Part shown: piece by piece, positions 10,317 to 45,187 of the stretch
Position numbering within the stretch: the first letter of the stretch is position 1
Layout of the letters: each line of letters begins with the position of its first letter
Program-made: the position numbers and the translations under genes
NCBI RefSeq assembly: GCF_023148685.1
Contig: NZ_JAHXNL010000002.1
Coordinates: 1 to 64,000, forward strand
Length of the DNA stretch: 64,000 nucleotides
Direction of reading: 5' to 3'
DNA from: Georgenia sp. EYE_87
GTDB taxonomy: Bacteria; Actinomycetota; Actinomycetes; Actinomycetales; Actinomycetaceae
Notes under the pieces: generated by a model
Databases searched by the model: none
What the model was told of the DNA's origin: nothing
Seen by the model: only the letters and a program-made list of their open reading frames with translations

Positions 10317-10922
10317 ATGCAGGAGCTGATGGTGGACTTCATCGTGTCGCTGGACGGCTACGCGGCCGCAGAGGGCTGGCCCGGGTGGTGGGGGCTCGAG
10401 GGCCCCGAGTACCTCGGCTGGCTCGACCAGCAGGAGGAGAGCGACTACACCCTCCTGATGGGGGCGAACACCTACCGGTTGATGTCCGCGATGTCTGCCG
10501 AGGCCGCCGGGCAGGAGGCGGACTACTCCGCCGACGAGGCGGCCAGCCTGACCGGTCTCGAGGCCGTGCCCAAGATCGTCTTCTCCTCGACGCTTCAGAA
10601 CCCGCTGTCCTGGGCCGGCACCAGACTGGTGAGCGGGGACGCGGTCGAGGCGGTGGCGGCGATGAAGCGGGACGGCGCGACCCCGATGCGCACGCTCGGC
10701 AGCGTCAGCCTGTGCCGCTCGCTCCTGGCGGCGGGTCTGGTGGACCGGTTCCGGCTGGTCGTCTTCCCGGTCATCACCGGGCGGACCGGTCGCGAACGGA
10801 TCTTCGACGGGTACCCCGACGTCTCCCTGGAGATGGTGGCCAGCCGGACGTTCGACGGCCGGCTCCAGCTCCTCGAGTACGTCCCCACGGTGCTCGCGGG
10901 CCCGCCGGGCGCTGCGGCATGA
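10317..10922 (+). CDS. dihydrofolate-reductase-like (RibD C-terminal domain) protein
   Basis: A 201-residue protein starting MQELMVDFIVSLDGYAAAEG. The sequence shows the RibD-C/DHFR fold: first strand and loop (VDFIVSLDGYAA), MGANTYRLM for the second strand and helix, KIVFSSTLQNPL, and a long conserved block LGSVSLCRSLLAAGLVDRFR followed by VVFPVITGRTGRERIFDG. Proteins of this group bind NADPH and reduce small heterocycles, but most have no known substrate. The ATG at 10317 is preceded by GAGGAGGGG. It stands alone between the TIGR02569 gene and the small sheath-like gene. A 17-bp direct repeat includes its stop codon. Confidence 0.9.
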   Translation: MQELMVDFIVSLDGYAAAEGWPGWWGLEGPEYLGWLDQQEESDYTLLMGANTYRLMSAMSAEAAGQEADYSADEAASLTGLEAVPKIVFSSTLQNPLSWAGTRLVSGDAVEAVAAMKRDGATPMRTLGSVSLCRSLLAAGLVDRFRLVVFPVITGRTGRERIFDGYPDVSLEMVASRTFDGRLQLLEYVPTVLAGPPGAAA

Positions 10923-10943: not shown

Positions 10944-11006
10944 GCGTCGCATGGGCGGACGTCGCCGCGGCGGCGGCGGACGGAGGCACGTGATCGGAGG
11001 AGCGAC

Positions 11007-11267
11007 ATGTCGCAGGAGAAGAAGATGGCGGAGCCGCAGCAGCAGGGTCGTAAGCCGGGCGGGTCCTGGCTCAGCCGCGCTGTCCACGTCGAGGAGGTCT
11101 CCGGCGGACCCCGACCGATCGAGGCTGTCGGAACGGCGGTGGCGGCGTTCGTAGGACTCGCGCGACGTCACCCGGTCGGCGCGGCCCTGGGAGCGGTCGC
11201 GGCGGTGTCGGTGGTCGTCGTCGTCGTGCGGGCGCTCCGTGACCGAGGTCGCCGGCCTCGCCCGTAG
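11007..11267 (+). CDS. small membrane protein with a contractile tail-sheath N-arm motif
   Basis: An 86-residue protein starting MSQEKKMAEPQQQGRKPGG. Residues about 20-55 (SWLSRAVHVEEVSGGPRPIE, then AVGTAVAAFVGLARRHP) closely match the N-terminal arm of phage and contractile-injection-system tail-sheath proteins, which typically read LSPGVYVEEV-x-SGSRPIEGVGT-x-VAAFVG-A. Instead of the rest of the sheath, the protein ends in one transmembrane helix (GAALGAVAAVSVVVVVVRAL) and a basic tail (RDRGRRPRP), so the arm would lie on one side of the membrane. GGAGG at 10996-11000 supports the ATG at 11007. No other sheath, tube or baseplate gene is in the window. It may be a decayed and re-used sheath fragment or a membrane tether for an injection system elsewhere. 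The similarity is seen in the sequence; the role is a guess. Confidence 0.7.
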   Translation: MSQEKKMAEPQQQGRKPGGSWLSRAVHVEEVSGGPRPIEAVGTAVAAFVGLARRHPVGAALGAVAAVSVVVVVVRALRDRGRRPRP

Positions 11268-11348: not shown

Positions 11349-11369
11349 GTTGAGCCGTACAGACTCAAG
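11349..11369. promoter_or_regulatory. HAIR site 1 (HspR operator) upstream of dnaK
   Basis: GTTGAGC-N7-ACTCAAG, matching the HspR-associated inverted repeat CTTGAGT-N7-ACTCAAG at 11 of 14 half-site positions or better. It lies just upstream of the putative -35 box. Confidence 0.8.
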
Positions 11370-11384: not shown

Positions 11385-11413
11385 TTGACGCGCTCACCGG
11401 GCCGGTTCAGACT
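11385..11413 (+). promoter_or_regulatory. putative dnaK operon promoter
   Basis: TTGACG at 11385-11390 and CAGACT at 11408-11413 are 17 bp apart. The start of transcription would lie inside HAIR site 2, so HspR bound there would block RNA polymerase. Confidence 0.6.
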
Positions 11414-11432
11414 TGAGTGCATACGACTCAAC
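11412..11432. promoter_or_regulatory. HAIR site 2 (HspR operator) overlapping the dnaK -10 box
   Basis: CTTGAGT-N7-ACTCAAC, a near-perfect HspR-associated inverted repeat, 47-68 nt before the dnaK ATG and overlapping the putative -10 box. Confidence 0.9.
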
Positions 11433-45166: not shown

Positions 45167-45187
45167 CTTGAGCGGAATAGACTCAAC
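45167..45187. promoter_or_regulatory. HAIR site (HspR operator) upstream of clpB
   Basis: CTTGAGC-N7-ACTCAAC, close to the HspR consensus, 52-72 nt before the clpB ATG. TAGACT at 45178-45183 inside it could be the -10 box. So HspR should repress clpB as it does dnaK. Confidence 0.88.

Follow-up and report, generated by a model that had tools for sequence, protein, structure and literature searches.

A small protein family of Actinomycetota consists of about 40 residues of the N terminus of a contractile injection system (CIS) sheath followed by a hydrophobic helix, and most of the genomes that encode it have no detectable sheath. One member lies in the window, which is the whole stretch of 64,000 nucleotides that was analyzed, and relatives were found in eight other genomes. 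The sheath identity of the arm is secure, whereas the mechanism by which it would act is inferred.

The gene and its 86-residue product

The gene runs from the ATG at position 11007 to the end of the stop codon at position 11267 on the forward strand, and its translation is an 86-residue protein, MSQEKKMAEPQQQGRKPGGSWLSRAVHVEEVSGGPRPIEAVGTAVAAFVGLARRHPVGAALGAVAAVSVVVVVVRALRDRGRRPRP. A ribosome-binding site, GGAGGAG (10996 to 11002, forward strand), stands 4 bases before the ATG, in line with the initial annotation, which had described a short gene with its own ribosome site encoding a sheath-like arm, a membrane helix and a basic tail. In the translation, the residues that match a CIS sheath in sequence searches are residues 20 to 58 (11064 to 11180, forward strand), the predicted membrane helix covers residues 57 to 74 (11175 to 11228, forward strand), and the basic C-terminal tail was found as described, at residues 75 to 86 (11229 to 11264, forward strand; RALRDRGRRPRP).

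Residues 57 to 74 are hydrophobic, and the best 19-residue Kyte-Doolittle mean in the window protein is 2.49. Among the nine members of the family, a single membrane-spanning segment is clear by hydropathy in six (Kyte-Doolittle values of 2.16 to 2.50) and borderline in three, all of family f17 (1.34 to 1.61). The order of arm and then helix held in nine genomes, with the membrane character of the helix borderline in the f17 members. An AlphaFold2 model based on a three-row alignment contained helices at residues 37 to 54 and 56 to 81, with a mean pLDDT of 65.6, and is indicative only; with three sequences and such a pLDDT, the model is unable to settle whether residues 37 to 54 are strand or helix.

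Two observations were made on the surroundings of the gene in the window. The gene 5' of it (10317 to 10922) has, by eye only, a dihydrofolate-reductase/RibD-type look. Just downstream of the arm gene, inverted repeats that closely resemble the HspR operator are found at positions 11349 to 11369 and 11412 to 11432, before dnaK (11480), and another such repeat lies at positions 45167 to 45187, before clpB (45239, by eye). The window had four matches to the HspR operator consensus with at most three mismatches, versus 0.5 expected.

The arm matches the extreme N terminus of contractile sheaths

When the window protein was compared with PDB sequences by phmmer, residues 20 to 58 aligned with residues 3 to 41 of 8bky_A (E value of 2.1e-7), the sheath of Streptomyces coelicolor, and the next-best sheaths had E values of 2.1e-4 and 0.012. 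The extreme N termini of CIS and phage tail sheaths (8bky_A, 9ezm_A and 7b5h_AO; PF04984/PF17482) are what aligns with this part of the protein. A profile made from the nine stand-alone proteins found a sheath N terminus at an E value of 9e-20. This profile matched eight distinct PDB sequences at E values of ≤1, each within the first 47 residues; six of them carry the name tail sheath, and the remaining two, All3325 and Afp3, are sheaths as well. In PHROGs, the window protein matched the tail sheath group phrog_23 (E value of 6e-4). The likeness to a sheath arm, initially read from the sequence by itself, was therefore confirmed by both the single protein and the nine-member profile.

A Pfam search with the window protein gave no match at E values of ≤10. 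In a full-length sheath relative, the two Pfam domains over the cutoff start at residue 237, so the arm is outside their coverage. The window protein has the N-terminal arm of a contractile sheath but lacks the subtilisin-like and C-terminal sheath domains according to Pfam. It also differs from sheaths in having 86 rather than about 500 residues and in having a hydrophobic helix after the arm.

At least nine genomes carry a stand-alone arm gene

Stand-alone arm genes of 58 to 86 codons were found in nine actinobacterial genomes, and the layout is therefore not due to chance. They are the window genome (G000) and a genus mate (G002), three genomes from three genera of family f17 (G333, G418 and G1218), and four genomes of family f45 (G757, G1066, G971 and G1051). 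The G757 protein is identical in sequence to that of Nocardioides iriomotensis (L061), and the G1066 protein is identical to that of a Nocardioidaceae MAG (L060). Nine is a lower bound, because arm matches in long open frames without a fetched locus were partly read, and a short gene can sit inside a long stop-to-stop frame (that of G1066 was listed at 499). Among 105 arm-motif matches in the first loci, which include overlapping loci of one gene, 99 continue for at least 350 residues, and 6 stop no more than 36 residues on, after a hydrophobic stretch. No additional stand-alone gene was present among the loci read in samples of relatives (59), the order (396), the class (394) and the phylum (396); from a collection of 84,980 species, the best 80 of 432 relatives were read. 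Weak matches, such as those at L002, L014, L016, L018, L020, L031 and L240 to L242 were judged by eye to be chance and were rejected.

Searches of Pfam and NCBIfam with six of the nine stand-alone proteins gave no match over the cutoff. No stand-alone protein made of sheath arm and membrane helix is described in the literature covered, in which subscription papers and bioRxiv are thinly represented, so that absence is unproven. Both results agree with the initial statement that no described family with this layout was known.

The motif RP[IL]ExVGTxxAAFVG is kept in all nine stand-alone proteins, and the consensus of the arm is GVYVEEVxSGxRPIExVGTxxAAFVG. Seven proteins have a complete SPGVYVEE-type arm, the window protein has the altered form WLSRAVHVEEV, and the G002 protein is without the GVYVEEV part, with only RPIEAVGTAVAAFVG left. 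Identity of the window protein to two Nocardioidaceae proteins is 62% and 56% and extends through the helix, and the combination of arm and helix is shared across genera and orders; relatives thus keep both parts, which had been proposed as a check. Over 36 pairs, the mean pN was 0.18 versus a pS of 0.52 for the arm and 0.51 versus 0.59 for the part after it, values that were obtained on ungapped blocks in which sites approach saturation and that still include the likeness inherited from sheaths. The post-arm pN is overstated, since alignment gaps are ignored, and G002 contributes nonmatching residues to the arm block. The picture was clearer for the three f17 proteins, which have the arm, LSPFS and the helix in common and whose arms gave pN values of 0.08 to 0.13 and pS values of 0.32 to 0.53. 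A short arm that had only recently arisen from a conserved sheath would appear conserved as well.

Two further sequences were noticed. The three f17 stand-alone genes (L140, L141 and L229) have in common CATCCTTG, ending 16 bases 5' of the start codon, which is perhaps a regulatory element. In G908, a lipoyl acyltransferase (E2; L239, 1266 to 2765) has an arm-like GARPMEAVGTSTAGFAGVAPG between its E3-binding and catalytic domains, matched by the profile at an E value of 2e-6; the linker is rich in alanine, and the match may have arisen by chance.

Most carriers have no detectable sheath

Docking to, or capping of, a sheath in the same cell had been suggested for this protein, and the carriers were searched for sheath genes. 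In the window genome, PF04984 had no match at E values of ≤10; in 14 control genomes, this model gave matches in 7, over the cutoff in 3. We also used a sheath-body profile, made from nine sheaths minus the arm, with a threshold E value of ≤0.01. Nothing was found at this threshold in G000, G002, G333, G418, G757, G971, G1051 and G1066. The only carrier with a sheath was G1218, which has one, and the arm of this sheath, YPGVYIDELSSGVHTITGVATSVAAFVG, is unlike the stand-alone arm of the same genome. By the same profile, four of the eight genus mates of the window genome (G003, G004, G005 and G006) were positive, with E values from 1e-107 to 3e-164. If the stand-alone gene and the sheath were independent, about 1.8 of the nine carriers would be expected to have a sheath versus the 1 seen [P(≤1) = 0.41], based on background rates of 39/341, 30/186 (rounded) and 4/9 that are hand counts from search tables with the frames partly inspected. 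These numbers indicate neither the positive link that docking would predict nor a proven avoidance, as would be predicted for a poison. Since no sheath was detectable in eight of the nine carriers, docking to a CIS of the same cell does not hold as an explanation for the family in general.

The gene surroundings were read by eye. They differed in each genome, and in the stretches read, no CIS gene was recognized near the stand-alone genes and no conserved neighbor gene was seen.

The arm also occurs at the C-terminal end of CoxG-like proteins

Eight CoxG-like proteins (PF06240) end in the same arrangement, with the arm, whole or partial, directly before a C-terminal membrane helix. These loci, L221 to L226, L228 and L234, are from G384, G194, G342, G1198, G1197, G1201, G1200 and G1199, respectively; seven of the genomes belong to genus g45 and one belongs to g81 (family f17). 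The fullest fused tail (L234, G1199) is SYISPGVYVEESPTDVRPINSVGTSTAS, which matched the 8bky_A arm at an E value of 0.001. Both of the arm-carrying proteins tested had the Pfam COXG domain. A sheath was found in two of these genomes (G384 and G1200), with none detected in the other six. For six of the eight fused genes, the surroundings were read, and a CO-dehydrogenase-type (molybdenum hydroxylase-type) large-subunit gene adjoins by eye. The arm segment is absent from the 32 other CoxG-like tails read (of 45 listed for other genomes), one of which is cut by a contig end; most of these tails have proline- and alanine-rich linkers. The arm-carrying tails are all of one family, so common descent explains their likeness to one another but not their likeness to sheaths. 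No sheath arm in CoxG is described in the literature covered, in which, again, subscription papers and bioRxiv are sparse and absence is unproven.

A role of the stand-alone protein as a partner of CoxG or CO dehydrogenase was considered and rejected. The COXG model had matches in eight of the nine carriers but also in 16 of 23 other genomes. The window genome has no COXG match at an E value of ≤1e-4, so a CoxG link cannot be general, and the window protein, unlike the CoxG-like proteins, has no COXG (SRPBCC) domain according to Pfam.

Explanations for a sheath arm at the membrane

The explanation that we favor, at somewhat less than even probability, is that a sheath N-arm was exapted as a membrane-side peptide module that acts apart from any CIS. 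In sheaths, the arm adds a strand to the beta-sheet of a neighboring subunit. The arm would have come out of a sheath gene by one or a few capture events and been given a new use; the helix would anchor the peptide in the cytoplasmic membrane, and the conserved arm may be shown there as a binding peptide for a nonsheath partner. Alternatively, the arm may drive self-association of the anchor. The arm-plus-helix end of the CoxG-like proteins suggests that other proteins, too, can be fitted with such an anchor module. We tentatively propose, with lower confidence, that sheath arm and membrane helix form a detachable module, found alone or on CoxG-like ends, that would dock partners unrelated to injection systems.

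The initial annotation had also offered that the gene is the last remnant of a lost sheath gene, and the 5' end of such a gene may have run by accident into a hydrophobic frame, giving a product without function. This is compatible with the rare and patchy distribution of the gene (by search, 2 of the 9 genomes sampled from the genus, 4 of the 341 from family f45 and 3 of the 186 from family f17) and with post-arm parts that are very dissimilar in many pairs (pN of up to 0.71 in ungapped comparison). However, a more or less hydrophobic stretch is at the same place in all nine proteins, the window protein resembles proteins from another order along its length, and both arm and helix were retained in the f17 proteins from three genera. 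A maximum-sensitivity search with the sheath-body profile near the nine genes gave four matches, the best at an E value of 2.3, none a convincing sheath remainder. The joint conservation of arm and helix across orders, with few amino acid changes in the arm, weakens the idea of a remnant, which we consider unlikely.

A decoy or poison would be a different use of the same arm: anchored at the membrane, it would join foreign sheaths, such as those of plasmid CIS or contractile prophages, stall their assembly and guard the cell. Such a function requires that carriers have no sheath or one with another arm type, as was found for most carriers and for G1218, respectively, and sheath-type matches do occur on plasmids (39 records, chiefly Streptomyces and Deinococcus), those annotated being tail or tail-sheath proteins and several records having no annotated gene at the match. 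Against it, the scarcity of sheaths among carriers is within chance, 50,697 phage records gave one arm match (E value of 3, unannotated), the one confirmed relative on viral contigs is a long sheath-type frame, and no defense gene was recognized by eye in the gene lists around the stand-alone genes. We regard this explanation as improbable. The same matches led us to reject carriage of the stand-alone gene itself by phages or plasmids.

Convergence, by which a small membrane protein of another kind came to look like a sheath, appears very improbable. The segment AVGTAVAAFVGLARR is rich in glycine and alanine and was modeled, at low confidence, as a helix and not a strand, and six of the nine stand-alone proteins have A or S directly behind RP[IL]E, which suits a helix better, where 40 of the 42 distinct sheath arms fitting the motif have G. 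Yet there is no reason for the SPGVYVEEV-type part, kept in seven of nine proteins, altered in the window protein and missing in that of G002, to converge.

Least probable of all, and by now hardly to be expected, is that the anchored arm exchanges strands with the sheath subunits of an intracellular CIS in the same cell, to dock or cap it: the arm is almost intact (28 of 28 residues compared are the same as in a sheath for G757 and 23 of 28 for the window protein), but sheath genes were detected in only one of nine carriers, G1218, with its other arm type, there is no positive link, and no CIS gene was recognized beside the gene. In favor of docking, another membrane protein, the single-pass CisA, is required for CIS firing in S. 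coelicolor and is proposed to link the CIS to the membrane; it is conserved in CIS gene clusters and has a largely unstructured N terminus and a C-terminal domain on the membrane's outer side (PMC12237407). The window protein may have a single membrane-spanning segment like that of CisA but is far shorter, and unlike CisA, which is encoded with a CIS in the same cell, its gene is in a genome without a detectable sheath.

If the favored explanation is true, a part of a phage tail would have been recruited to a cellular task without contraction, and the protein would offer a small probe for what a sheath arm binds without the sheath. Matches to the arm by itself are unsafe as evidence for a CIS.
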